In this document: positions 18,419-38,550 of the stretch, one piece after another
Numbering within the stretch: position 1 is the first letter of the stretch
How the letters are laid out: each line of letters opens with the position of its first letter
Origin: Lepiota brunneoincarnata
Taxonomy: Eukaryota; Basidiomycota; Agaricomycetes; Agaricales; Agaricaceae
DNA length: 64,000 bases
Direction of reading: 5' to 3'
NCBI GenBank assembly: GCA_023014365.1
Contig: JAEBUN010000001.1
Location: 3,348,001-3,412,000 of the forward strand
The notes under the pieces: generated by a model
Told to the model about the DNA's origin: nothing
The model's input: only the letters and a program-made list of their open reading frames with translations
Database searches by the model: none
Made by a program: the position numbers and the translations under genes

Positions 18419-18422
18419 ACGG

Positions 18423-19778
18423 TGATACGCCGATTTCACGCCTATACATGAATTCCGTACTCCGGAACGATTCTCTACATAGAATCATTGGCTATATCAT
18501 TAAAGAACTCTATAGAGGATTGGTACTATATCCCGTAGTAGCCAGTTTGACCGAACTGAGGATATTCGAGCCTCGGAAGTGTTCAAACCAGCTCATTATC
18601 ACTAAGCTTAGTGAACCAAGCTATCAGAACGCTCTCCGGAGGGATTCAGGACTCTACATAGCCTATCGAGTATACCCCGGTCGCATCCAGGGACCTTACG
18701 AGCAGTTTTCTGATGAACCCGAATGCGTTTGAACATAAAAGAATGTACCTAGCGGCTGTCACAGGCATATTACGTCTATAGCGAGTTCAATAATGATGAC
18801 CGGACCACGGAATGAAACGTCCAACGTTCGGGAGGCAATACCCGATGCCCAAAACCCTAGAAACATCAAAGACTCCTAATTAACGAGTGCTTTGTGGGTC
18901 CCGGCACTTCGGCATTCTGCTTAACTGAGATTAATTACAACGGATCAAGGGATTGTCCATCCGCTATACATTCCGATCATAATTGATCCGGAAACTTAAC
19001 GCGCTCACGTGGACGCAGAATAATGCAGCCAAGCATGGAGCACATCCGGCTGGATTGCCATTCGTTAATCAGAGAAAAACCCATAACCCAGGGTGAGGTA
19101 GAAATGCTGCCGAACCTTCCAAAATGTTCTACAGTGCCTGTAACAATTAAGCTTATTGTTTTCTATTTCATATTTACTATCTCTCGTATGTATCTAAACA
19201 ATATAAATACGGTCGCACTTGTTCGTGGAGAGGAGAGAGGTCTCACCCCCGCTTCCACACGCAAGTCTGCGAGCCGTGATCAAGAACGGTTTCAGAGGGC
19301 TATTTAGTGTGCGTTGTTAAGTGTGATTTCTTCGGTCATCGACCAACCCAGGGACAGAGACAGAGACCAGAGTTCAGAGTTTAGAGTTCCAGAGTGCTAG
19401 AGACAGAGACAGAGACAGAGACCAGAGTTCAGAGTTTAGAGTTCCAGAGTGCTAGAGACAGAGACAGAGACAGAGACCAGAGTTCAGAGACCAGAGACCA
19501 GAGACCAGAGACCCAGCGCTTTGAATTGACAGGGATTGTCCTTTCATTGTTGCACCGTATGGCTAAGATAACTTCAATGGCTGTTCGTTAACCTCTAAAA
19601 ACACTACTCTCTTGAATTTCGCTGTCAGAACGCACCCCCAGAACACCCTAAAAGACGAAACTGTTCATTATCTATCTCATTCCACTTGTATTAGCTTAAG
19701 CTTATCGAATAGCGGCTAAGCTTAGTGAAAATGAGTCCCCTATCTATATTAAAACCTACGAAAGTTTCTACCTTTTCA
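18423..19778 (+). repeat. 5' LTR of the 14.7-kb element
   Basis: Begins TGATACGCCGATTT and ends CTACCTTTTCA. A TATA-like box, ATATAAAT, lies at about 19201 and would start the genomic RNA shortly downstream. A block of GAGACA/CCAGAG-type repeats (about 19360-19510) has about one 50-bp copy more than the 3' LTR, which explains the length difference. Four TAAGCTTA palindromes lie at 18603, 19148, 19697 and 19717. A 94-codon frame at 18448 is present in both LTRs but has no recognisable domain. Confidence 0.95.
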
Positions 19779-19780
19779 TC

Positions 19781-19798
19781 TGGAGCCCACCGCGAGGG
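19781..19798 (+). promoter_or_regulatory. Primer-binding site
   Basis: TGGAGCCCACCGCGAGGG begins two nucleotides after the LTR end. It starts with TGG, the complement of a tRNA 3' CCA end, so minus-strand DNA synthesis is probably tRNA-primed. The primer tRNA cannot be named from the sequence alone. Confidence 0.75.
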
Positions 19799-19909
19799 GG
19801 GTTTTCAGTTGAATTTCACGAGCCAAACACCAAAAAGACTTGGACACTGGCCTGCCTTTCACCTGCGAAGCAGAAAAAGGTTCAAGCAAAGACCGTAAAG
19901 TCACCCAAA

Positions 19910-21826
19910 ATGTCCTTTGAGAACAGTCTCAGGAAGGTCGACCCCCCAAAACAGAGAACTACTCGGAATTCCAATCGTCCAGAAGGTTCTGAAGGCCTCA
20001 TCGCCGCTAGTACCTCTCGAAAGCGAAAAGATCCCGTTAACTCTCTAGCTGCGAACACAGCAAGTGGTTCAGCAGTTGCAGTATCGAGAGAAGTCGCACC
20101 GCCGACCTCTACTACTCCCAGAATTACACTAAGGCTTCCAGCCTCAGCTTGCAACATAGCGCATATTCTGCGCACCGAAAGCCAGGATGGCCAGACCGTT
20201 CCTACGCTAAGCTTAGCGGTTACAAACCAAAACTCGTTTCATACGAACCCTCCTGGTGCCTCTACGGTACCACAGATATCACAGTCAACTCCGACTGTAC
20301 AGACAAACCAAACTACGCCGTCTACGACGACTACAGCTAGAAAAATGGGACACGAGCGTATGCCAATTCCCTTTAGCAATAATGCTCCCAGATGGGATGC
20401 ATCAAAACCACAGACATTGAGAAATTATCTCTGGACGCTTGAATGGCTCTTCATGATAACGAAGACGATGGACGATGCAGAAAGGATAAATTGGGCAGTG
20501 TCATATGTGGACCAGGATATCCGTGAAGAGTGGATGAGTTTTACGGAGTTCCCAGCAGGAAGCTGGACAGGCTTCGTAGAGAGATTGAAGAAAGAGTATC
20601 CCGAGACTGTGGCAGCTGAGCAGGGCTCAGTGCGACGATTGAGGGAACTCTGCACAGAGAGTAGAGGCATTGCAATGAATGAGGAGCATAGAGTCTTAGA
20701 CTTCAAAAGGCAATTCATCCTAGAAGCAGAGAAGTGCCTGAAGTCGCCGGCGGTAGTCTCGAACCGAGAGCTAGTCGAGTTATTTACGAGCGCACTGGAC
20801 TCCGTGTTCCAGGACGTACTCAATGCGAGATTAGCGATCACCGGGGCGCGTAGAACCACGAGCGATGGGTTGGCACTAACTGCGAAGGATTTACGCGAAG
20901 AGGACCCCTATGATTGGAGGATCGTCGTGGATAAAGCCGTCGAAATTTCGATTGGCAAAACACTTATGCGATCCCTTCATCAGGATTCAAGGCCGGTAAA
21001 CTCGGCATCAATGAGCCATCCACCTGCGACGTCCGGAACAGGGACTTATGACCCTGTAGTAAAGCGAGAGCTGCAAAGCTTAAAACAGAAGTTTCAGGAT
21101 GAAGTCTCGCAGATGGCAGGCGGTCTCGCTGAGCTTAAGGACCTCATGAATATCCAGGGGCATACCTTAAAATCATACTTAGAGAGTTTGGCGAAAGAAG
21201 GACATAATCATGCCGGTTATAATCACGCTCAGAGGAATACCGGAAGTGGGTCGGCAGGGTCGCTTTCCGATTGCAAGTGTTTCTACTGCTGGTTATTAGG
21301 GCATAGTTGGTTATTCTGCCCGGACATGGAGGCGGATAAACAAGCTGGCCGAATTAGAGTCGAAGGGAACAAAATATATATGGGAGATGGCTCGAGTATC
21401 CCTCGAGGAGAAGGGCCTATTAAAGAGAAAGTGGCAAAGTACTATGCGACAAAGGGACAACTCTTCGTTCAGATACCAGAACTGCCAGAGGTTGAGCCTG
21501 AGTTACCGCAAGTGCCAACGTCAGCGGTGTTTGCACAGAGAGCGTTCCCGAGGTCAGAAAACCAAAGGTCACCAGTGGAAGAAGAAGTCCGCCGTCTGAA
21601 GCAGCGCATGGAAATGTTAGAGACAGTTGCCATCCACGCCGGGAGTGCCCCAAAGGTTAAGCTTATGACCAGAAAGGATGATAATGTCGAGATACAGTCT
21701 TTGGCTGAGCAATTGGCCCAGATACAGGCTAAGCTTAGTGGTTTGACGGATGGTACGCCCTCGGCAAGCCAGTATTTGGACACCAGGAGTGGTGCGAAGA
21801 CTTGGAACTCGGAGTCAGGTTTCTAA
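19910..21826 (+). CDS. gag: gag of the 14.7-kb element (638 aa)
   Basis: An intact 638-codon frame from an ATG 131 nt after the LTR. It has an S/T/P-rich N-terminus, a capsid-like central part (residues about 150-340, including WDASKPQTLRNYLWTLEWLF and a helical region), then a CCHC knuckle CFYCWLLGHSWLFC (C-x2-C-x4-H-x4-C) near residue 457, and an acidic C-terminal tail with a possible coiled coil (EEVRRLKQRMEMLETV). It would form the virus-like particle and bind the RNA. TAAGCTTA lies inside it at 20208 (read LSL), 21658 and 21730 (read KL). The protease frame overlaps its end at -1. Confidence 0.9.
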   Translation: MSFENSLRKVDPPKQRTTRNSNRPEGSEGLIAASTSRKRKDPVNSLAANTASGSAVAVSREVAPPTSTTPRITLRLPASACNIAHILRTESQDGQTVPTLSLAVTNQNSFHTNPPGASTVPQISQSTPTVQTNQTTPSTTTTARKMGHERMPIPFSNNAPRWDASKPQTLRNYLWTLEWLFMITKTMDDAERINWAVSYVDQDIREEWMSFTEFPAGSWTGFVERLKKEYPETVAAEQGSVRRLRELCTESRGIAMNEEHRVLDFKRQFILEAEKCLKSPAVVSNRELVELFTSALDSVFQDVLNARLAITGARRTTSDGLALTAKDLREEDPYDWRIVVDKAVEISIGKTLMRSLHQDSRPVNSASMSHPPATSGTGTYDPVVKRELQSLKQKFQDEVSQMAGGLAELKDLMNIQGHTLKSYLESLAKEGHNHAGYNHAQRNTGSGSAGSLSDCKCFYCWLLGHSWLFCPDMEADKQAGRIRVEGNKIYMGDGSSIPRGEGPIKEKVAKYYATKGQLFVQIPELPEVEPELPQVPTSAVFAQRAFPRSENQRSPVEEEVRRLKQRMEMLETVAIHAGSAPKVKLMTRKDDNVEIQSLAEQLAQIQAKLSGLTDGTPSASQYLDTRSGAKTWNSESGF

Positions 21827-22935
21827 AGGGTTCGAGGAAGGAGCCGGCTCTGAAGAAGAAGGTCGCCTTCGCCAGAGGACAGACTCCTGAGGACGCGTCG
21901 GATTCCGAGCAATCAGAAGAATCAGAAAATGAGGAAATAGGGCAGACAACGGAGAAACCAATGCGTGCCGCAGCAGGAGAATTACCATATAGAAATGTGA
22001 AACCACTGTGCCCGGTCGTTGAGGTACCACCACTACCTGTCAGAAGGATGGAACCATCCAAGAAGGAGCCTGCGTATAAGCACCAGGCCCCTATAGAGAG
22101 GAATGTTGATGTTGAGGAAGTACTCAGCAGGGTATTGAAGCGAGAAGCCTCAGTATCGCATGGAGAACTCTTGGCCTTGTCACCGATATACAGGAATGCT
22201 TATAGAGAGCGCATTATGAGAAAACGGGTACCCACGAGTCAAAGCTTAATAGCAGGAGTAGGGCCTGGGGACGATAATACAGAAGATATAGAGATTAATA
22301 GTGGGCCAGTACAAGTCATGATAACGGAGTTGGCAGATGGCTCTCGGAAGTATGATACGGTGCTCCGAGAAGGCTCGGCAACCCAAGCCTGGGTAGCTCA
22401 GGATCCAATCATGCAGTACTTGGAGTCACTGTCCCGAAGAGACAGGGGACGGCAAGTGTTTATTGCGAAAGAATGCAAGTCGTTGAGAGTAGTGCCAACT
22501 CTGATAAATGGGATTTGGCAGGAAGAGGCCTTGCTAGATAGCGGGTCACAGATCGTCTCCATGAGTCAGGAAGCGGCGATTGCATGTCAAGTTTCTTGGG
22601 ACCCAGATACTACGATAAATTTGCAGAGTGCGAATGGGCAGGTTGAAAAGACTTGTGGATTGGCAAAGAACGTAGGCTTTACCTGCGGGGGCGTCACAAT
22701 CTATTTGCAAGTTCACATCGTTCGTAGCCCCACGTATCGAGTACTCCTGGGACGACCCTTTGATGTAATGATGGCTAGCGAAGTCAGGAATAGCGCCAGT
22801 GGCGAGCAAACCTTGGTTATTACGGACCCAAATACCAGAGAAAGGGCTGTGTTACCAACTTATGCTCGAGGAGAGTATAATCCTCCTAAGCTTAGGGAAA
22901 ACAGTCAAAATTTTCAAGAAACCTCGATGAGTTGA
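21739..22935 (+). CDS. pro: Aspartic protease region (pro) in -1 frame to gag
   Basis: An open frame overlapping gag by 88 nt in the -1 frame, with no ATG near its start, so it is expected to be made by frameshifting; I see no canonical slippery heptamer in that overlap. The catalytic motif is LLDSGSQIVSMS near 22533-22570 (DSG form), and the downstream flap-like segment YRVLLGRPFDVM near 22736 fits the ILGRPF motif of retroviral-type proteases. It would cleave Gag-Pol. It ends at TGA 22933-22935, overlapping pol. Confidence 0.8.
   Translation, partial: WFDGWYALGKPVFGHQEWCEDLELGVRFLKGSRKEPALKKKVAFARGQTPEDASDSEQSEESENEEIGQTTEKPMRAAAGELPYRNVKPLCPVVEVPPLPVRRMEPSKKEPAYKHQAPIERNVDVEEVLSRVLKREASVSHGELLALSPIYRNAYRERIMRKRVPTSQSLIAGVGPGDDNTEDIEINSGPVQVMITELADGSRKYDTVLREGSATQAWVAQDPIMQYLESLSRRDRGRQVFIAKECKSLRVVPTLINGIWQEEALLDSGSQIVSMSQEAAIACQVSWDPDTTINLQSANGQVEKTCGLAKNVGFTCGGVTIYLQVHIVRSPTYRVLLGRPFDVMMASEVRNSASGEQTLVITDPNTRERAVLPTYARGEYNPPKLRENSQNFQETSMS
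22908..22914 (+). promoter_or_regulatory. Candidate -1 frameshift heptamer between pro and pol
   Basis: A|AAT|TTT read in the pro frame is AAATTTT, matching X-XXY-YYZ (X=A, Y=T). It lies inside the 40-nt overlap of the pro frame (ends 22935) and the pol frame (open from 22896), and slippage by -1 moves exactly into the pol frame. No downstream pseudoknot was worked out. Confidence 0.55.
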
Positions 22936-24089
22936 CTGAGGGACAAGGAGAGGTGGCTTGTATAATAGACTATGATGATGAGAAGGGCCCTGTCGTCACA
23001 CAAACACTAAGCTTAGCAAAAGGAAGCTTCTCAGAGGCCGAGCTACAGCTAATGTTCATTGACCAAGTCATACGCGATGAGGACTGCCCACAGGAAGATA
23101 AAGCAACGGCGTTATTGTGCCTAGGATGCATAGCCAACGCGCAGGGCACAGAGGACCAGGGAATAACTGTCTTCGAAACAGAAGAAGATGACAAAGATAC
23201 GGTACAATGCCTGGCTGGGAAGAAATATAAACCAGTAGCCTTAAAAGTGAGGCCAGTGTTGGGTGATCTACCGGAGAGATTCAGGATAAAACGAGAAATA
23301 AAAGGGGACCCACTGGCAGAAATGCCTGAGCTTAGCGTGCATCCTCCAGAGTTTGTCCCAACAGGCAGATATACGGAGGAGCGTAAGCTTAAGCTGGACG
23401 AAGCCCATGCAGGGGATTTCTTGTGGCCAGAGGAAAGAAAGCTGATGCACCACATCATGATGCTTCAAGAAAAGGCATTCACCTGGACAGATGAGGAAAA
23501 GGGATGTTTTAGGGAAGATTTCTTCCTGCCGATCGAGATACCGACGGTAGAACATACTCCGTGGGTTGAGAAACCCATTCCGATTCCACCAGCGATCTAT
23601 GATGAAGTTTGTGCCATTATAAAGAGAAAGATTAGTGCTGGTGTATACGAGCCGTCGAACTCATCCTATAGATCCAGATGGTTCTGTGTGGTGAAGAAAG
23701 ATGGGAAAAGTTTGAGACTGGTACACAGCTTGGAACCGCTGAACAAAGTGACGATAGCGTATTCAGGACTGCCACCAGCAACAGAAGATTTGGCAATGCA
23801 CTTCGCAGGCAGAGCTTGCGGAGGCATTCTGGATCTATATGTTGGCTATGACGAACGACTGTTAGCTGAGTCGTCTCGGGACTTAACAACGTTCCAGACG
23901 CCTTTTGGAGCGCTACACTTAGTGACATTACCCATGGGATGGACCAATTCAGTGCCTATATTTCATGAGGATGTAACAGCGATCCTAACCAGTGAGATAC
24001 CAGAATACACGATGCCGTACATAGATGATGTACCTATCAGAGAACCCAAAACTAGATATGAGCTGCCAGATGGCACGGAAGAGATGCTG

Positions 24090-24752
24090 TGTCATATCCA
24101 CACCAAACCTAGAGCTTAACCATTAGGCTTCGGCTTCTCGACTCCACGTGTGCTCCACACGACAACCCTATGCCCTCCGACTCGGCCCCGACTGGCTCCG
24201 ACTGCAACCCTTCGCCCCGATCACGCGACCTACCTCTACACGTGCCACGATCACCTGACCCTCGGTGCTCCCATTGTTCAGTTCTCCATTCTCCGTCCGT
24301 AATCAGAATACATTACCAGTCTCCATACCCGTACCGGTCTCCATTCCATTCGAAATTATTCGTAATCCGCTTGTAACCATATGGGTCTCCGCTTCGCTCC
24401 GCACGTAGTCAGTACGAGTCATAATTCGTCGAGCTAGTAGTATATATACCGTAGGCACTTGGCTTGTACTCCTCAGTCTGATAATCGAATCGAGCAGCGG
24501 ACCAGCTCCCTATTCCATATCCTCTCCTCTCTTCTGCCTCGCTCCGCTTCGGCTCCGACTTCCTGAAATACGGACTAGGACAGTAGGAGGGCACAGCACA
24601 TAAGCTGAGGCCGCAAGTCCAACCCCCCGCCCGACGTACTCTGCCTCGGTCCCGAAGTCTACGTACTGACTTCGCCCTGTCCCCCGGTTACCTTATACCA
24701 AGGATACCACCCCGACCCTCCGCTTCGGTCCCGACCCGCACCGGCTCTAACA
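24090..24752 (+). mobile_element. Solo LTR (family D) inside RT, 663 bp
   Basis: Starts TGTCATATCC and ends GGCTCTAACA (TG...CA). Flanks are TGCTG (24085-24089) and CGCTG (24753-24757), a 5-bp duplication with one mismatch. A second copy lies at 60063-60723. A TATA-like tract, TATATATAC, occurs near 24433. The LTR splits the RT just after the YIDD box; precise removal restores the frame, so it arrived after the gypsy element and has lost its internal region by LTR-LTR recombination. Confidence 0.9.
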
Positions 24753-27425
24753 CGCTGAAAGAAAACCCAGGGATCCGACGATTTGTATGGGAACACATGC
24801 AGACGGTCAATAGGATTCTACAGAGGATGAAATACGTAGGAGGAACCTTCTCTGGGCCCAAGACGACTATCTGCGCTGATGAAATCACTGTAGTGGGTTT
24901 TGAATGCTCTTATAAAGGACGGTTGCCTGCCACAGACACCATTGGGAAGATATTAAGATGGGGGGATTGCGAGAATGTCTCCGAGCTAAGGGGTTTTCTA
25001 GGAACAGCTACGCGCTGCAGGAATCATATCCCGAAGTTCATAGCCATTGCTGCACCTTTATACGAAAAGCTTAAGAAAGGGCAAGAGTTTGAATGGGGAG
25101 AAAATGAACGGAAAGCACAGCAGGAGCTGAAAGATGCGATTCAACGCTGTTTCCTGACCAGGAACCCCGAATTCCCGAGTAAACAACCCATAGTAGTAGC
25201 CGTGGATACCTCATGGAGGGCGGTGGGATACTACATATATCAGCGAGATGGAGAAGACGCTAAGCTTATACATTATGCGAAGTTTGGGTCAATATTGTTG
25301 GACGAGAGACAGCAGAGGTATTCTCAGCCCAAGCGAGAGCTATGCGGCTTAAGAATGGTGCTGGAACAGGAGAAATATTTGTTGTGGGGATCGAGAAATC
25401 TAGTAGTGGAAACAGACGCGAAGTTTCTCTTTGGGATGTTAAACAACCCAGGAAAACTCCCGAACGCTACTGTAAACCGTTGGGTGGACTTCATTAGATC
25501 GTTCCACTTCACGCTAGTACACAAAGAAGGAAAGACATTTGGGCCGGATGGACTGTCCAGACAACGTTACTATCCCGGTGATGAGACAGCCCGTCGTTTC
25601 GACGACGGATCCGAGGACGAGGGAGAGGAGTTCGAGTTGATCAAAGGAGATCCGGGGGCTGCAGATCCGTTACCCTTGGAAGCCTTCTGTGATGAGATCG
25701 ACAGTCGCTCTGGCTTCTACTAGGGTCTGGCGCGTGATGTGTATGATTTTGAGTATGAGCTGGATCAAGCTCGGGAAGAGTACTTGGATGAACAACAGGC
25801 TAAGCTTAGGGTTATAGAACTCCCAGCGTGCCCAGAAAACCACCGACAAGTACTAAGCTTAATGACGGATGTCAGGCTAGTGCCAGATTTCGAAGAGGAA
25901 AAGTTGACCAAGATAGAGGAAGCGTATGATGAATCGCGTAGGACAGATACAGCGTGAATACAAGATGGAAGAATACCCAAAGTCAGGGAATACCTGAAAA
26001 CAGGGGGCAGTAGCGCAGCTGAAGGCTTGGATGAGCCGGATCTGCGTAAGCTTAAGCATATGGTGGAGCATTTCTTCTTGGACGAAGAGGGGAGACTGTA
26101 TAGGATGAGCCCTAGCAGTCAGCATCAGCTAGTAGTGGATAAGGAGCAACGTATGTATATGTTGCGAGCCAGCCACGACTTCCTAGGACACAGGGGAATA
26201 TACGCAACCACTAAGCTTATAACGCAGAGGTTCTGGTGGCTGGAAGTTGAAGGAGACGTAACTTGGTATGTGCAATCGTGCCATCTATGCCAGCAACGAC
26301 AAAAGGCGATCATCGAGACGCCGCCAATAGTAATGCCCACGCCGTCGATATTCCAAGTGCTACATGTGGACACACTACATATGACGCCAAGTTCTAATGG
26401 GTGTAGTTATATTGTGCATGGAAGGTGTGGACTGTCGTCCTGGATGGAGGCAAAAGCTTTGAGAAAAGAGAATGCTAGTTCGATTGCGCAGTGGTTATTT
26501 GAAGATATCATTTGCAGATGGGGCTGTATAGTGAAGATTGTCACGGACAACGGTTCTCCATTTAAGAAAGCTGTTCGATGGCTGGAAGAAAAATATGGGA
26601 TAAAAGGAGTAACAATATCTCCTTACAATTCCAAAGCGAACGGGATTATTGAAAGAGCCCACTGGGATGTGCGGCAAATGTTGTACAAAGCTACAGATGG
26701 AGATGTCAAAAAGTGGTATTGGCACCTACCGCACGTTATGTGGGCAGATCGGATAACCATTAGAAAAGGAATGGGGTGTTCCCCGTACTTTCTGGTAACC
26801 GGAGCGCACCCGACGCTACCTCTGGATGTCAAAGAGGCCACTTGGCTAGTACAACTACCAAATAAGTACTTAACCACGGCCAAGTTAATAGGATACCGAG
26901 CTCAGGCTTTGGCAAAACATGTTCGGCATGTTGAGGAGGTGCGTCAGCGTGTTTCAGACACTAAGCTTAGCAAGGCTTGGGAGATGGAACAACAAGCAGC
27001 GCATAAGATAAAAGATTATCGCTTCGGCCCAGGAGATTTAGTATTAGTGAGAAACACAGCTATAGAGAGCTCAGCAGACAGGAAGATGAAACCCAGGTAT
27101 CTAGGACCCATGGTGGTCATATCTAGATCGAAGGGAGGATCATATATCCTGGCAGAGTTGGATGGCTCTGTATGGTAGAATAAAGTGGTGGCGTTCAGAG
27201 TAATTCCCTACTTAGCCAGAAAACATATGCCGTTGCCGCTGGAGTTACAAGAGTTGTTAGATCTGTCACCAGAGGGACTGAAGACCCTGGAGGAGACTAC
27301 TGAGGATGAGCCTAGTGACAGATGGGAGCCAGAAGAGTTGGAGGGATAGAAAAAACCTGATATTGTGGACAGAACTATCTACTTATCGAAGGAAAACTAT
27401 CCTGGGGACTGTAAAAGCGTTAAGC

Positions 27426-28772
27426 TTAAGCGGGGGAGGACTTGTCCAAGTCGGAAAGGTTGCGCAAAAGGCTTTTGAGACGGATGCGCTCTTGAATGAG
27501 GAATTGGAACCTTTTTAAGTTGGCTTCGAGCGAGGGAATAGCATCGATGAAGTCCCGGCTGAGCGAATTGAGGTCGCATTTGACTGACCAAGCGTCGTCA
27601 CCGCGAGATTCGGATTCGTACTCGTCACGAGAGTGAGACAGGAGGTTTTGGAGTTCCTGGAGCAAACGAGCTGCCTGGGAGAAGTGTCAGTACCGTTAAG
27701 CTTAGCAAAGAGAAGTGAGAAATTGCCCACCAGATAAGCCCACAAAGGTGCGCTCATCGGAAGCAGACTCGGTACGGGTGCGCTTGGCAGTATTGGCGCT
27801 GGCTTTGGCTAGAACCTGTTCAGCCCGGACATAACAGCAGTGTTTAGTGTTCATATTGGGAACTTGACAATAGGAAAGAAGACAGACGGTGCCTTTAGAC
27901 GATGAGGACTTTTTGACGGTCTCCTAAAGAGGGAGGAAGTCAGAATCAGTAGTTGGGGGGAGTGGAGCTGGCGCACCACGTCGGAGGTAGACAAACGACG
28001 CTTGCGATAAGGCGAGACTACACGAACCTCTTCGACGATAGCTTGAGAGACCTCCTCATCGACCATCATGTCCTGGAGGCAAGTGATTATCTCAGCCAAT
28101 GTAATAGGTTGAGAAGCAGCTATATTACCGTGTCAGCACCAGTTGCTCAGGAGTTGGAAGCACTGGGCATACTCTCAGCAAGCTCGGTATCGGTGTCTAC
28201 CACAACAGCAGCAGAGACAGGGGCCTTGCGACCTTTGCGAGGCTAAGCTTATACATGAGGAGACGATTGGAGCCAAAAGAACGCTAAGCTTACACGTTTG
28301 GGGACAGCAGAGCCTTCGGCAATGTTGGAGGAAGTAGAGCCAGTCGTGGACGATGGGTTCTGAGCCTCTTCGGTCCTGGATTTGTGGGATTCTTTGGAAC
28401 GAACGCGATTAATGCGGCTACAGCATTCAGAGAGCGCCTTATAGATTGTGGGCATCTCATAAGACGAATGGTAGTTGTTTTGGTAAATTTCGTAGAGCTT
28501 GCGGATACGGAAGACGTAGTCCTGGTTGACATGAAGCTTGATAGCCTCATTATCCTCCGATAACGCTTCAATATAAGCAGACTAGAAATGATTTGGAAAC
28601 GGCGAGAGAAGCATGGAAAGAGTAGACATACCCCAGGGGCGTCGAACGCAAGGAGAGCCTTCTCGACGAGGGGACGAGCGACTTGGCCGTTTTGCAGGCG
28701 CTGAAGACGACCTTTGGCGTTGCTGATGAGATCGTCAAGCTCAACCTGGAGATGGGGGATAGAAGAAGCCAT
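27426..28772 (-). CDS. Cargo gene A: antisense six-exon gene, 356 aa
   Basis: I do not recognise the family. Exons: 28772-28632, 28581-28294, 28242-28173, 28119-27977, 27923-27744, 27674-27426. The five introns are 50, 51, 53, 53 and 69 nt with GT/AG ends; introns 3-5 show branch-like CTGAC motifs, and phases agree to give 356 codons ending in TAA. The N-terminus MASSIPHLQVELDDL is helical; a basic patch PKRPRKGRKAP spans the exon 2/3 junction; cysteines cluster in exon 5 (CLLSYC, HCCY); the C-terminus looks like coiled coil (LLQELQNLLSHS, LIQERIRLKSLL). Intron 2 begins GTAAGCTTAG and ends TAAGCTTAG, and the stop codon lies in another TAAGCTTA. It lies between pol and gene B, antisense, converging on pol. 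The exon 4 donor (GTGCGC) and exon 5 donor (GTGGGC) are the weakest calls. A nuclear or regulatory role is only a guess. Confidence 0.7.
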
Positions 28773-29046
28773 TTTCTTGCGAAGGGTGTCTGCTAGAATG
28801 AGACATCGCTCCCTCGCTTTTATAAGAAAAGGCCGTAGGCAGCAATGACGAATCATAACGAGTGGATGAAGAGCACCCTCCACCCTAAGCTTATGACCTG
28901 AGGGGCCTAGGAAACCTGTAATCTTGAGTAGCCAGCCTTCGACAGACTTGCTGAACCACAGTTGCCTTATTAGGTAACATGTCGCCAGGGTCTCGCGGTT
29001 ATCAGTGTGCACAGGGATTCTGATGGAACGGTGAGGGCACCGATTT

Positions 29047-29067
29047 CAATTTGGCTAGGGGGAGATG
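29047..29067 (+). repeat. Internal duplicate of the polypurine tract
   Basis: The sequence tttggctagggggagatg matches the PPT and LTR start at 31800-31817 (tttggttagggggagatg) with one mismatch; the match extends a few bases to the left (caa). It lies in the 0.69-kb gap between the two antisense genes. In position it resembles a central PPT, or the scar of a cargo-capture recombination. The sequence after it is not LTR. Confidence 0.65.
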
Positions 29068-29457
29068 GGTCCCAAGGGGCGTTTCAGTTTGACAGTTTGA
29101 CGCGAGCTTTTTCGCAAGGAGCTTTTTCGAACAGCGTGGACAGGCTGGTTCAGGCTTGTAAGTAAACCGGAGCGGATGAGCCGGGTCACTACGCGTTGCG
29201 GGTCACGGCGTGCTGAGATGTCAATAAACATCACTGATAGATCAGAGAGGCATATAATGAGTATATAAGTGACTGGCAACCTAAACTAGCTTAGGAGTCT
29301 TCCAGGAGGTCTTTAGCTTAGCTTTAGGAGATGACAAGAAAGTCAAAAACAGTTTAGCTTAACTCAGTAGGAGACAAGGAACAACAAGATGACTATTGGG
29401 ATGTATATACATGACAAGATTATATACTACATCCAAGAAGTAAACTAGGCGCAGAGA

Positions 29458-31488
29458 TCACTCAAGGTCTTCTAGAACAGACTCCGGATCCTGAGTCATC
29501 AGGAAAGCGAGGAAGAGAAGCGATTTGAGCTCCTCGAATTCCTCGTATGTCGGGACCCCCGGAAAGTTGTTGGCGAACTCAAAGAACGCCCAAACGTCTT
29601 CAAGGGAGTCGGCCATACCCATCTCTACAAAAGCCACGTCGTTACCGTCCAAGGCAGTCCTGGTAGCTTGCATCTCCTGGACGAATTGATAAACTACACG
29701 GCGGTGGTGAAACGCCGAAGCCTCGTAAGCGACGCGGTTCGCCTCCAGGCTGACCAAGCTAGAGGACACAACACGCGCAAACGCGGCCAGATCTAGAAAA
29801 ATAAAGAGAATAAGAAAAGGGAAAAATAGTGAACAGAGAAACTTACGGTATTCACTGGTCAGTGAGGATGTGACCAGGGCGTTTGCAATGCCGGCCGAAA
29901 CCCGGGGATGGTCCGCGAAGGTACAAGGGTAGTTGTACAAGTCGCAGCTGCGACACTTCTTACCCTTGCCCAGAGGCTCGCACTCCAACTTACGAGCAGC
30001 GCAAGAAGGACACCGAGACCGAGGTGGCACGTACTGGAGCAGATGTCAAAGCCGTCAGTAAGGAACCACGAGAAAACTTGGAGAACGTACCGAAAGCTGG
30101 CTAGCTGCCAGCAGCCTAGGAAAGTCCTCACAAAAGAGCGGGACTGGGTGCCGGTATCCATGGTCCCGAATAATTTCGGCCTCAGAGCGCCGAACGCGAG
30201 CCCGGGGAACGTATTTCTTCGTCCGCGTGTTGGAACTCTTCTTGGACGAAAGGACGCGTTGTTGACGCAACGGGCCAGCATGAGGGGACTCTTGAGGGAT
30301 CTCCGGAACCACCGGGCTAGGCAAACGAGAAAGGACGGGGGTCGGAGAAGCTAAGAACGCGTCTTGAAAAACAAAAGTCGGTTCTTGAGGGGCAGGCGAA
30401 GGCTCCAGAAGGAGCTCCAAATCTGGAGAAGGAGAAATCTCCACGGCGCTTGCGGGAGACGCGACTGGAGCGCCAGCTAAGTGAGGTGGTGATGGTGTTG
30501 GGCACCTAGGCGAAGCCAGCACCTGTTGCCCATCCAGAGAAGAGGACCAGCTAAAGATTTTGAAGAGGTCGGCTTGAGAGATCTCAGGGACTGGAGAACG
30601 CGATGACGAGTTAGAACCCGCCAGGAATAAGGGGAGAGGGGGCGGCGTCAATGATTTCGCCCTCTGTTTGCCTTTAAAGGCAGCTGGTATACGCGCTAAA
30701 GCAGAAGTCAGCGGAAAGAACAAATATATCGTGAAAAACGACTAAGCTTACGCGTTGAAGTAGCAGAAGAGAGTACGGGGGAAGAAGGCCGGTTTGTTGA
30801 AGGGCCCGGCACCTCCGAACCTGATGCAATACCCAAGGGAGGGAGCACCAGCGAGTCTTCCTCGTCCAGGGTGCGCAGAGAGACGGCGAGAGGGGGCAGC
30901 GACATTGAACTGGACGAAGCCTCTGTGGATAATCCACCAGAGGGCCCGCCAACGGGGATACCTGACGAGGGTTCTGCGGAAAATCCGGCAGAGCGCTCGT
31001 CGGTTGGATTGCACAACGACGCGATGGAAATCACGCGTCTTGGCACTGGAGCGTACAAAGGAGAGGCCGGCGGAGGAGTTGGTTCATGGGGTGGAGAGTA
31101 TGGTGGAGGAGGGGTCCTTGCCACACCCACCTGACAATTTCCGCGAGCTCCTCGAGCTCCTCGCCCTCCTCTAGCCCTCCTAGTACGCGGTGCTGGTGGT
31201 TCCCATTGAGGTAGGAGGTTGCGACGTGCTGGGAGGCGAATAGTGAGACCTAAAAGTAGAGAAAACATAAGTAAAGACAACGAGAACAGGGGAAAACGCG
31301 ACTTACGTTGCGCGATCGATGATGAAGGCGTGCCTTGGGAAGCCGTTGAGGCGTTGCTCAGCCCAGGGTAGCCTGAAAACAGTGTTAAGAAAACAGACAA
31401 AACTGTAACTCGAACTCTACTTACTGGAAGAAGAGTCCGAGTCCTCCTCGTAGCAAGCACGTTTGCTGCTGTGCATGTTTCTGTCCAT
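29458..31488 (-). CDS. Cargo gene B: antisense six-exon Zn(II)2Cys6 protein, 584 aa
   Basis: Exons: 31488-31425, 31372-31307, 31249-30752, 30695-30091, 30033-29847, 29792-29458. Introns are 52, 57, 56, 57 and 54 nt with GTAAGT, GTAAGT, GTAAGC, GTACGT and GTAAGT donors and CTGAC-like branch sites in introns 3 and 4. The exons sum to exactly 585 codons including TGA. The protein is Ser/Pro-rich and disordered over residues about 45-400 (ARTPPPPYSPPHEPTPPP), with a basic stretch (RVRRSEAEIIR). At residues 419-448 it has C-x2-C-x6-C-x8-C-x2-C-x6-C, a perfect fungal binuclear zinc cluster, known in this family for DNA binding. The last 110 residues are acidic and helical with a VYQFVQEMQ core. The cluster sits far from the N-terminus, which is unusual for classic regulators. 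Intron 3 starts GTAAGCTTAG. There are no stops or frameshifts although pol is broken. Confidence 0.8.
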
Positions 31489-31806
31489 TGTTGATAGAAG
31501 TGAGCGTTGAAAAGTGAATATGCGAGCACAATAGACGAGTAAGAAGTGAGAGGGAGAACGAAGGAGATGAAACAAGACCTTGGGACATTTAAAAGACCCA
31601 ATAAAGAGATAAAAATTTAAGCTATAGCAACAAGAAGTTGATCTATACATTTAAACTCAGTGACATGACATCATTCTGAAATAAGCTTAGCGAAAGTGCG
31701 CTACCCTCGAAGCTGGTGAACGTTCTAGACCATAGAGCGCGTCAGAGAGACTCAGATACTGCGAATTTGAAGGAGATAATGACTGAGGACAGTCAGCAAT
31801 TTGGTT

Positions 31807-31815
31807 AGGGGGAGA
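31807..31815 (+). promoter_or_regulatory. Polypurine tract
   Basis: AGGGGGAGA ends immediately before the TG of the 3' LTR, the expected position for plus-strand priming in LTR retrotransposons. Confidence 0.85.
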
Positions 31816-33116
31816 TGATACGCCGATTTCACGCCTATACATGAATTCCATACTCCGGAACGATTCTCTACATAGAATCATTGGCTATATCATTAAAGAA
31901 CTCTATAGAGGATTGGTACTATATCCCGTAGTAGCCAGTTCGACCGAACTGAGGATATTCGAGCCTCGGAAGTGTTCAAACCAGCTCATTATCACTAAGC
32001 TTAGTGAACCAAGCTATCAGAACGCTCTCCAGAGGGATTCAGGACTCTACATAGCCTATCGAGTATACCCCGGTCGCATCCAGGGACCTTACGAGCAGTT
32101 TTCTGATGAACCCGAATGCGTTTGAACATAAAAGAATGTACCTAGCGGCTGTCGCAGGCATATTACGTCTATAGCGAGTTCAATAATGATGACCGGACCA
32201 CGGAACGAAACGTCCAACGTTCGGGAGGCAATACCCGATGCCCAAAACCCTAGAAACATCAAAGACTCCTAATTAACGAGTGCTTTGTGGGTCCCGGCAC
32301 TTCGGCATTCTGCTTAACTGAGATTAATTACAACGGATCAAGGGATTGTCCATCCGCTATACATTCCGATCATAATTGATCCGGAAACTTAACGTGCTCA
32401 CGTGGACGCAGAATAATGCAGCCGAGCACGGAGCACATCCGGCTGGATTGCCATTCGTTAATCAGAGAAAAACCCATAACCCAGGGTGAGGTAGAAATGC
32501 TGCCGAACCTTCCAAAATGTTCTACAGTGCCTGTAACAATTAAGCTTATTGTTTTCTATTTCATATTTACTATCTCTCGTATGTATCTAAACAATATAAA
32601 TACGGTCGCACTTGTTCGTGGAGAGGAGAGAGGTCTCACCCCCGCTTCCACACGCAAGTCTGCGAGCCGTGATCAAGAACGGTTTCAGAGGGCTATTTAG
32701 TGTGCGTTGTTAAGTGTGATTTCTTCGGTCGTCGACCAACCCAGGGACAGAGACAGAGACCAGAGTTCAGAGTTTAGAGTTCCAGAGTGCTAGAGACAGA
32801 GACAGAGACAGAGACCAGAGTTCAGAGACCAGAGACCAGAGACCAGAGACCCAGCGCTTTGAATTGACAGGGATTGTCCTTTCATTGTTGCACCGTACGG
32901 CTAAGATAACTTCAATGGCTGTTCGTTAACCTCTAAAAACACTACTCTCTTGAATTTCGCTGTCAGAACGCACCCCCAGAACACCCTAAAAGACGAAACT
33001 GTTCATTATCTATCTCATTCCACTTGTATTAGCTTAAGCTTATTGAATAGCGGCTAAGCTTAGTGAAAACGAGTCCCCTATCTATATTAAAACCTACGAA
33101 AGTTTCTACCTTTTCA
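31816..33116 (+). repeat. 3' LTR of the 14.7-kb element
   Basis: 1301 bp, TGATACGCC to ACCTTTTCA. It matches the 5' LTR except for about a dozen transitions (for example ACGAAA for ATGAAA and TCGTCG for TCATCG) and one missing GAGACA/CCAGAG repeat copy. Followed by TSD ACGG at 33117. Palindromes TAAGCTTA at 31996, 32541, 33035 and 33055 match the 5' LTR positions. If transcribed antisense it could also drive genes B and A. Confidence 0.95.
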
Positions 33117-33120
33117 ACGG

Positions 33121-36005: not shown

Positions 36006-37046
36006 GACAGCACCGCCAGAATCATATCATGATTCAGCGAAGGGAAGAACTGAGCGATGTCAAAGGCTACAACGCTAGTCCGCAGTCCCCGAGCCCACCC
36101 CGCACAAATGAGATGGGTGAGGATCAACCCGGCGTCCTCAGTGGACTTCTGGCAGATACTGCCAACCTGGTTGGGATGGAACACCCCCCATCTGACGCAG
36201 TCAAATTGGAGGCGGTTGGAGATCATCTTCTCCACAAGTTTGCCCAATGTGTTAAGCAACACAATCGGCTGGAAAGCCTTGGGGGTGGAGTATGAGGGCT
36301 TCCCCGGCTTAGGTATGACCACCGAGTTAGACTCCTTAAAATAATCAGGCCAATGTCCTGCCATCAGGCAGGCATTGGCAAGATCGATGAACACATGGCA
36401 GGATGCTCGATCTGCCACAATGTCCTTCAGGTACGACCACGTAACATGGTCGGGCCTGGGAGCAGACTTCTTTGCACAAGAACGTAGAGCGTTCTCGAGC
36501 TCCAAAGTGGAGAAAGGGTACCACACCCTCTCCGCCTGCACGGGGAGAGCGTCCAACACAGAGGAATCCACAGTGCGGCCAGAGGCCGCATTGTAGGTCC
36601 CATGAAGAGCATCTCATAGGGAGCCCATATCGTGACACGGCACGCCATCGTGCTAAATCACGTCGCATGCGGGCAACTTGTGCTGCTTAACCCAGGCCAT
36701 CAGGTCCCAGGGGTGCTTGTTTGCAGAGGCAATTTCTTCGATCTTCTCATCGAAGAACTTGCGTTTGACGGCTTTAGCGGCCCGCCGGAACTTGTACCAC
36801 ACCTCCCCCGAGGGGGAGGCCCGATACGCCCTAATAGCAGCAGTACAGTCGTCATTCCACCAGGGATTAGACCGACCAACAATGAACACCTCCTCAGAGA
36901 AGGTGTCCCAGGCCTGGGAGATGATACGAGCCACGGCCAAAGCCACAGACTCCACCTCCGCAAGGGTGTCCAAGGGCAGTCGCAAAGCGGTAAGCCCCTC
37001 ACATACCTGCGCCATGAACTTCGACTCCTCGTCGCTATCGGGCTTC
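36006..37046 (-). pseudogene. LINE-A ORF2 middle fragment
   Basis: Minus-strand piece from the APE/RT linker (ARSRSSWR equivalent, EEVFIVGRSNPWWND, KRKFFDEKIEEIASANKHPWDLMAW) to RT motif A (FDIAQFFPSLNHDMILAVLS). Both ends are LINE-insertion junctions: on the left the poly(A) of a plus copy (followed by GACAGCACC), on the right the poly(T) of a minus copy (GAAGCCCG in that orientation). It is the remnant target of two insertions. Confidence 0.8.
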
Positions 37047-38550
37047 TTTTTTTTTTTTTTTTTTTTGAAATCAACAATTTATAACGCAGTGCTCGAATGC
37101 AGTCCGCGTGCACTAACTACAACAAAGTAACTAGTACATGGTATAACTACCAATAAAGGTAGGGAAGAGAGTCCTGCTGACTCGAAAGGTGACACTCCGT
37201 AAAGAAGTGCGCGTGGGCGAAGAGCCCACTACCCCAACGGAAACCAGGATGCGGCAGACGAGGGGTGGATAGGACCAACAGGTCCCCCCCCAAAGGGGGT
37301 TAGGAGTCAATTCTCTGTAAATCCCTACACCCCGCAGACTAAGGCTCTAAGAACGTTGGGTCTCCGCCCCTAAGGGTGTTAGGAGTCGATTCTCCATAAA
37401 TCGCTACACCCCGCCCAAGGGTGGGGGGCAAATAACCACCAGTCCCTCAAGGCCGAAGCCGCAAGGGGGGAATAACCCGAAGGCCCTCCCCAGTTATCCC
37501 ACCCCTTGGGGCCGGGATAGGAACGCAAATGCGGAGGGATTGTGTTCCAGAAAGCCCAGAAGGGCATTGAGGTCGTGGGGTAAGCTGCCATGCCATGTGT
37601 ACTTCGGACAAGAAGTGAGTATGTGGGTGCGGGTTTCAAGCCGCAACCCACAGGGACAGGAGTGGTCCTCCTGGGGGTGGAATCTAGCGCAGTACTCCCC
37701 GATAGGGGCATGACTGAGTATAGTGCGGGCAGCCCTCGCTGTGCCAGTGACGGACATCTGGGGGCCGATTTCTCAGAGCCACGCACCTCCGGAGAGGTAC
37801 GAGGGTTGGATTGGCTTCCCGAGGGAGTCCAGTAGGGGGAGGAAATTCCTCCCCCTATAAAAGGGTGAGCGAAACATATTCACCCACTCGTCAATACACC
37901 CTCTCGTGACCTCAGCCCGGAGAGAGTCGATAGTAGTCGCCAGGCGAACGCCCAGCAATACACGGAGCTCCTTCGCCATCGCGACAGTGTCAGAGTGAAG
38001 TTCTGCAACAGAGCCCACAGGCACCTGCCAGAAGGTAACAGTCCGCTGGGCCTTGGAAGACAGCCAGCGGTCTAGGGACCAGTACACCTCCAGGGAATGG
38101 ACCTGGCTGGCGTGCACAGAGGGATCCACAGCTCTGCGGGCAGAGCCCGCAGAGCTGGTGTAGATGAAGATGTGGTCGGTTTCCGCACGATCCAAGACCA
38201 TGCTTACTCCCAACCAAATGGAGTGGAGTTCCGCATCAGCGAGCAGAACCCTCCCCGCAGCCTGCCTGGCCTGCTTGACTAGACGCCCGCCTGCAAACAC
38301 GCAAGCTGCCAAAACAGCCTGCAGCCTCCTGCACGGCAGCCGGTGGGCACCAGCCACTATGCAAACAGACGATGGATCAGACTGTGCCCTCCGAATGGAG
38401 GCGTGCAGCCCGTCGAGGTGCCGTTGCTTCGAATCCCCCTCCAGATCAATGGCGTAAAGTCTAAATTTGATCCGCTCCAAAAAGTGGTCCAAAAGACAGA
38501 GACCTGGCCTATTCTCATCTGCAAATGGGGAGAAAGGCTCAGTAAGTTGT
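37047..38550 (-). mobile_element. LINE-A copy, 5'-truncated, minus strand
   Basis: Poly(T) 37047-37066, 3' UTR, C-terminal zinc finger and RNase H-like region to QLTEPFSPFADENRPG. An in-frame change splits the frame near 37780. It ends at 38550, where it joins a plus-strand LINE-A C-terminus (NPRTSPEVRG-equivalent DNA) in opposite orientation. Confidence 0.8.

Follow-up and report, generated by a model that had tools for sequence, protein, structure and literature searches.

Two antisense, intron-bearing genes and a dispersed palindrome in a Ty3/Gypsy retrotransposon of Lepiota brunneoincarnata

We analyzed a stretch of 64,000 nucleotides (nt) from the basidiomycete Lepiota brunneoincarnata (contig JAEBUN010000001.1, positions 3,348,001 to 3,412,000), referred to below as the window, in which a long terminal repeat (LTR) retrotransposon of the Ty3/Gypsy type carries two genes, A and B, on the strand opposite to its own gag and pol. 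Both genes lie between the integrase region of pol and the polypurine tract (PPT), each contains five introns, and gene B is under purifying selection. The same element holds 27 exact copies of the palindrome TAAGCTTA, a sequence absent from the rest of the window. We tentatively propose that the two genes form an antisense regulatory cassette, in which the product of B, perhaps together with that of A, would recognize TAAGCTTA and thereby switch on the element's own family or relieve it of silencing.

Gene models and their occurrence among copies

A first-pass annotation of this DNA had claimed two minus-strand genes with ten introns in the integrase-PPT interval. Their presence is confirmed, with splice sites conserved over 30 copies of the element. 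The models below are based on splicing, splice-site conservation and selection; A (28772..27426) and B (31488..29458) each splice into a single stop-free frame.

27426..28772, minus strand: gene A, 359 codons
28631-28582, 28293-28243, 28172-28120, 27976-27924 and 27730-27671, minus strand: introns 1 to 5 of gene A
29458..31488, minus strand: gene B, 584 codons
31424-31373, 31306-31250, 30751-30696, 30090-30034 and 29846-29793, minus strand: introns 1 to 5 of gene B

The lengths initially given were 356 and 584 codons. For each gene, an independent search with a script that permits GT..AG introns of 46-79 nt placed these models within its top eight; the top-scoring model of A has a sixth intron. 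The 584 codons of B stand, whereas A has 359 codons, because its fifth intron is the 60-nt segment at 27730-27671, bounded by GT..AG in 30/30 copies. At 27743-27675, where the first-pass annotation had placed this intron, GT..AG is seen only in the window copy (1/30) and the other 29 fail. Over the 30 copies, introns 1 to 5 retain GT..AG in 30, 28, 30, 30 and 30 cases in A and in 30, 28, 26, 30 and 28 cases in B. Every failure in these sets is a donor change from GT to AT; two acceptor failures occur additionally in five older B copies. The frame of A is intact in 24 of the 30 copies (23 with all GT..AG), that of B in 16 (11 with all GT..AG), and the integrase is without stops in 11; the copies behind these counts were picked by similarity and the rates are not population estimates. 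Since spacing, exons and splice sites are alike in dozens of copies, the gene models are not a product of chance. Introns of antisense genes are not removed from the genomic RNA and so persist through retrotransposition; those of A and B were kept because the two genes run against this RNA.

Other copies were sought in the whole genome (55.6 Mb, 95 contigs). Among the best 40 of 169 candidate integrase copies, A and/or B are listed nearby in 36, and both in 20. A is listed in 28 of these 40, at 245-248 bp downstream of integrase. B is also listed in 28, at 2264-2294 bp downstream in 24 of them and at 2102, 2595, 2981 and 3275 bp in the remaining four. Each of these lists is confined to its 40 best entries, and a gene missing from one is not taken to be absent: of the four integrase copies with neither gene listed, the one that was read (C15) has the end of B in place. 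The position of the module is thus constant among copies, as the earlier reading implied. The 35 B copies form three groups: clade 1 (L001-L021), clade 2 (L022-L030) and clade 3 (L061-L065). A adjoins B in clade 1 and clade 2 copies; three clade 3 copies were read past B, with A found in two and LTR-gag sequence in one. In this last case (L068, G000:C7:738390-739790), LTR-gag adjoins B where A is expected, in what is a rearranged, nested or truncated copy.

Selection and gene products

Copies of the element decay by CpG transition: among shared changes, 106/134 in A and 223/321 in B are of this type. We do not rely on raw dN/dS (omega, the ratio of nonsynonymous to synonymous change per site), because CpG transitions dominate and recur. 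Raw pairwise omega declines from about 1 among the closest pairs to 0.42 where dS is largest, with overall values of 0.51 in A and 0.47 in B, and raw site counts give 0.64-0.71. All counts that follow are restricted to non-CpG changes, with P values that treat sites as independent; L068 was dropped from the counts for A, its row being LTR-gag, and L046 and L048 from those for integrase (28 of 30 copies used).

Gene B is under purifying selection. Changes seen in at least three copies comprise 55 nonsynonymous (N) and 82 synonymous (S) ones (omega 0.27, P 4e-14; introns 33/276); the corresponding numbers for the integrase are 2 (N) and 7 (S), with omega at 0.11 (P 0.002). In B, clades 1 and 3 are separated by 26 N and 43 S fixed differences (omega 0.25, P 8e-9; introns 23/276), clades 2 and 3 by 42 N and 54 S (omega 0.31), and clades 1 and 2 by 17 N and 16 S (omega 0.43, P 0.013). 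By zone, between clades 1 and 3 and using the whole-gene site ratio, omega is about 0.44 for codons 1-60 and about 0.14 for codons 370-584, which contain a zinc motif and an acidic tail. Single-copy changes yield omega values of 0.59 in B (45 N, 31 S), 0.27 in the integrase (24 N, 33 S) and 0.55 in A (30 N, 21 S, P 0.03).

For gene A we find some constraint, weaker than for B. Changes in at least three copies (10 N, 7 S) give an omega of 0.55, which is not significant (P 0.17; introns 16/267). Per site, replacements are rarer than changes in introns (10/624 versus 16/267, P 0.0008), and synonymous changes are not clearly so (P 0.13). The initial claim that the genes are kept by selection, submitted to a dN/dS check, therefore holds well for B and more weakly for A. 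The argument first offered for it, that the genes are intact while pol in the same copy has stops, is no evidence in itself, because this copy is young and the integrase is stop-free in the 11 copies mentioned above. In B, the 33 fixed non-CpG differences that set clade 1 apart from clade 2 are all confined to codons 68-254, which indicates mosaic copies, and hence recombination or template switching between lineages.

The product of B is likely a DNA-binding protein of the GAL4-type Zn2Cys6 class, judging from the following features.

29923..30012, minus strand: Zn2Cys6 motif C-x2-C-x6-C-x8-C-x2-C-x6-C, in exon 5 of gene B
29458..29792, minus strand: exon 6 of gene B, with an acidic tail in its translation

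The Zn2Cys6 spacing rule is C-x2-C-x6-C-x(5-12)-C-x2-C-x(6-8)-C, and the cysteines of B satisfy it. The zinc-cluster protein of the first-pass annotation is upheld by the six cysteines, retained in 35/35 copies, but the Pfam family Zn_clus scores beneath its gathering cut-off of 21 bits, both with exon 5 alone (E 0.008, 16.7 bits) and with the whole protein (11.3 bits). Structures were predicted from 15 of 28 distinct stop-free variants of B exon 5 (L064 and L065, which have a stop in this exon, were left out of the set) and from 14 of 28 distinct variants of A exon 2. In a Foldseek search of the PDB, all 15 matches of the B exon-5 region at E up to 10 were Zn2Cys6 proteins (solely PUT3, HAP1, Gal4, PPR1, Leu3, AlcR and like chains), two of which we take to be such; none fell below E 0.5. 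From its composition, the acidic tail is a possible activation region.

No known domain was found in gene A when one was looked for. The model of its exon 2 is helical, with a predicted local distance difference test score (pLDDT) of 61.5, and the A product, probably helical, may be a partner of B. Neither A nor residues 330-584 of B matched the protein collection at E 0.001 among candidates of 0.55-1.75 times the query length, which is weak evidence of absence, as intron-split genes in metagenome predictions would escape such a search. A viral contig collection searched with B, and a plasmid collection searched with gag DNA, gave no match.

The palindrome and its candidate reader

The TAAGCTTA palindromes, overlooked in the first-pass annotation, are distributed as follows.

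18603..33062, no strand: 27 exact TAAGCTTA palindromes, ten of them CTAAGCTTAG
Starts 1-14: 18603, 19148, 19697, 19717, 20208, 21658, 21730, 22887, 23008, 23384, 25261, 25801, 25854, 26047
Starts 15-27: 26212, 26962, 27421, 27697, 28244, 28285, 28886, 30743, 31682, 31996, 32541, 33035, 33055

A Markov model of the element predicts 0.25 occurrences, the other 49.3 kb of the window have none, and the runner-up 8-nt palindrome occurs five times in the element. About 23 of the copies are distinct, and they are spread across LTRs, coding regions, introns and spacers. Genome-wide, TAAGCTTA occurs 5370 times against 842 for a backward-read control, a comparison that is not quite fair because the control contains CpG and may run low. 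Of the 100 sites listed first, which are all on contig C1, 96 lie at an element-specific distance from a neighbor, whereas chance distances match in 28%.

The sites are also conserved. At the 12 that could be compared across copies, one point change is seen where 29.4 are expected from non-CpG controls, and variable alignment columns amount to 1/96 in TAAGCTTA versus 436/5196 in controls (P 0.002). Within gag-pol the sites fall in two reading frames (K-L and L-S-L), and at three integrase sites K-L is found in 1/9, 0/11 and 3/11 aligned relatives (52-76% identity). From the use of two frames and the rarity of K-L in the relatives, the sites look as if substitutions had created them in place and as if they were then retained at the nucleic-acid level. 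Three palindromes of the array lie at splice sites: the donor and acceptor of A intron 2 (28243-28293) and the donor of B intron 3, GTAAGCTTA (30743-30751).

We may hypothesize how cassette and palindrome work together. A and B, presumably expressed and spliced, would form a two-gene accessory cassette that persists in antisense, introns included, through retrotransposition. B is the obvious candidate reader of TAAGCTTA, and A may act alongside; B, alone or with A, would bind the site as a dimer, and this binding would mark the element family against the rest of the genome. It would then activate the family or lift silencing by CpG methylation. The two LTRs of the window copy differ by 12 substitutions over some 1300 aligned positions, all of them CpG-type transitions (a thirteenth difference, at the cut end of the alignment, stands outside this count), and for this reason methylation of the family is likely. 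Because this CpG-only divergence suggests methylation, the lifting of silencing is a likely use of palindrome recognition; plain transactivation would fit equally. As an indirect proxy for the removal of methylation, CpG decay was compared with distance to the motif, and no protection of CpG near TAAGCTTA is seen.

Other readers of the palindrome should be weighed. A and B may regulate the element while the reader of TAAGCTTA comes from the host, as a transcription factor or chromatin protein recruited by the element. This would agree with a site that is element-specific and conserved, and that is unlike the usual Zn2Cys6 site; we nevertheless think it unlikely, given that some 23 sites in coding and non-coding sequence are many for promoter use, and that the element encodes a likely DNA-binding protein of its own. 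The palindrome may also act in RNA, its self-complementary loops serving in the pairing and packaging of genomic RNA. The placement of sites throughout the LTRs and internal region and a conservation that looks nucleotide-level suit this idea. Retroviral dimer-initiation sites are short palindromes too, but the known ones number one or two near the 5' end, versus about 23 along the full length here, and we regard a role in RNA as improbable.

Two further alternatives concern the genes themselves. If A and B were passengers, captured once and carried by chance, the lack of relatives noted above would be readily understood; purifying selection on B and the presence of A beside B in clades 1 and 2, and in two of the three clade 3 copies read, make this very improbable. 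We assign just as slight a chance to a cassette working via antisense RNA, through double-stranded RNA or transcriptional interference, with protein frames that matter little. This possibility was raised for plant antisense open reading frames (ORFs) in PMC7264820, but here splice sites are kept and B strongly avoids replacement changes, its omega of 0.25-0.27 arguing against such a mechanism.

The element and comparable systems

The host of the cassette is a Ty3/Gypsy element, having LTRs, a target site duplication, a primer binding site, a PPT and a pol with the order reverse transcriptase, RNase H, integrase.

18423..33116, plus strand: Ty3/Gypsy LTR element (LTR pair, TG..CA ends, target site duplication, primer binding site and PPT read directly)
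18419-18422 and 33117-33120: target site duplication ACGG, 4 bp
18423..19778, plus strand: 5' LTR, with a 55-nt tandem unit three times, the third copy 69% alike
19781..19799, plus strand: primer binding site TGGAGCCCACCGCGAGGGG, read directly 3' of the 5' LTR
19800..21826, plus strand: gag reading frame, in an open frame at 19700-21826
21739..27178, plus strand: pol (protease, reverse transcriptase, RNase H, integrase), from the ORF list and Pfam
25958..27178, plus strand: integrase part of pol (Integrase_H2C2, E 1.4e-15)
29047..29067, plus strand: second PPT-like sequence CAATTTGGCTAGGGGGAGATG, in the spacer between genes A and B
31805..31815, plus strand: PPT TTAGGGGGAGA
31816..33116, plus strand: 3' LTR

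In the window copy, pol is disrupted by stops, by shifts of frame and, at about 24119-24755, by an insertion that may be a solo LTR or some other short element. In Pfam searches, RT_RNaseH and Integrase_H2C2 exceed their cut-offs; RVT_1 is weak (E 0.22), because the insertion splits the reverse transcriptase. No family above cut-off was found for gag. The protein collection holds 410 relatives of the integrase at E 0.001, the named ones being from Cyclocybe and Mycena, and by sequence the integrase resembles those of Ty3 and prototype foamy virus (PFV). The 5' LTR contains one copy more of the 55-nt tandem unit (19349-19513) than the 3' LTR does (32742-32851).

The second PPT-like sequence is identical at 20/21 positions to 31797-31817 and invariant in 28/28 copies compared (L017 and L021 left out). 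It may have been left behind when the module was acquired step by step, or it may serve as a second primer for the plus strand. As evidence for a selected central PPT, the invariance fails to single it out, as the same spacer holds other equally long invariant runs. Around the element, LINE-like (long interspersed nuclear element) fragments extend over much of the window (10697, 36620-37130, 39268, 41775, 45240). They occur in both orientations and meet at A-tracts next to a tail that recurs; from their ORFs only, we read these older repeats as LINE debris.

Genes placed in antisense between pol and the 3' LTR have been described before, in plants and in Boty. The plant Gypsy genes termed aORF-3R (Grande gene23, RIRE2, Retand, PvRetro13; PMC11963269, PMC7264820) are, in the portions of these sources consulted, like A and B in being antisense, in that interval, present in most copies and conserved. 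Their proteins have been proposed to be nuclear or DNA-binding, and the Grande gene reportedly has a promoter of its own that drives its transcription (same sources). Coding conservation is shared with B (omega 0.25-0.27), and more weakly with A. In contrast, antisense introns are not described in PMC11963269 and PMC7264820, where the word 'intron' is absent from the main texts. Retand proteins carry TRP28 (PF04195), a family that Pfam searches with A and B did not return at E up to 5, and about half of Retand elements have tandem-repeat arrays in the antisense ORF region, with no dispersed palindrome described in the sections consulted. Boty of Botrytis cinerea, with its antisense gene brtn (Zhao 2011, cited in PMC7264820 and PMC8365987), is likewise a fungal Gypsy element, but, as far as these citing papers go, its host is an ascomycete and a single gene is named. 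Bdelloid rotifer LTR elements have also captured additional ORFs; antisense intron-bearing genes are not described in the consulted portion of PMC5408684, and 'intron' is absent from its main text. The literature searched, which mostly excluded subscription papers, contained no account of a basidiomycete element with two antisense genes and ten introns in one module, and none of an LTR element with an array of palindromes.

The closest functional parallel may be VANC, of the Arabidopsis VANDAL DNA transposons, a clear case of self-specific anti-silencing (PMC5735166, as far as the text was available). There, a transposon protein recognizes a short motif that is enriched in the family encoding it, as TAAGCTTA is enriched here. 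The VANC motif, YAGTATTAY, lies in non-coding tandem repeats of DNA transposons, whereas TAAGCTTA is a dispersed palindrome found also in the gag and pol frames, and its recognition by an element protein is a prediction. In fungal DNA transposons encoding TET/JBP dioxygenases, DNA methylation may likewise be the target of a transposon gene, whose product is in this case an enzyme rather than a sequence-specific binder (PMC12730594, consulted in part). It is possible, if somewhat doubtful, that the present element represents an independently evolved, VANC-like self-recognition in a fungal Gypsy lineage, with its own antisense regulator and about 23 planted palindromes.

The cassette, whose ten introns were each scored in 30 copies, provides a clean natural example of how antisense placement preserves introns through retrotransposition. 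The proposal for its function bears on the open question of how a transposon escapes silencing without waking all others, and is directly testable, since it involves one protein and one eight-base site. If it is true, a fungal LTR element would have reached a VANC-type solution through a different element class and a different protein.

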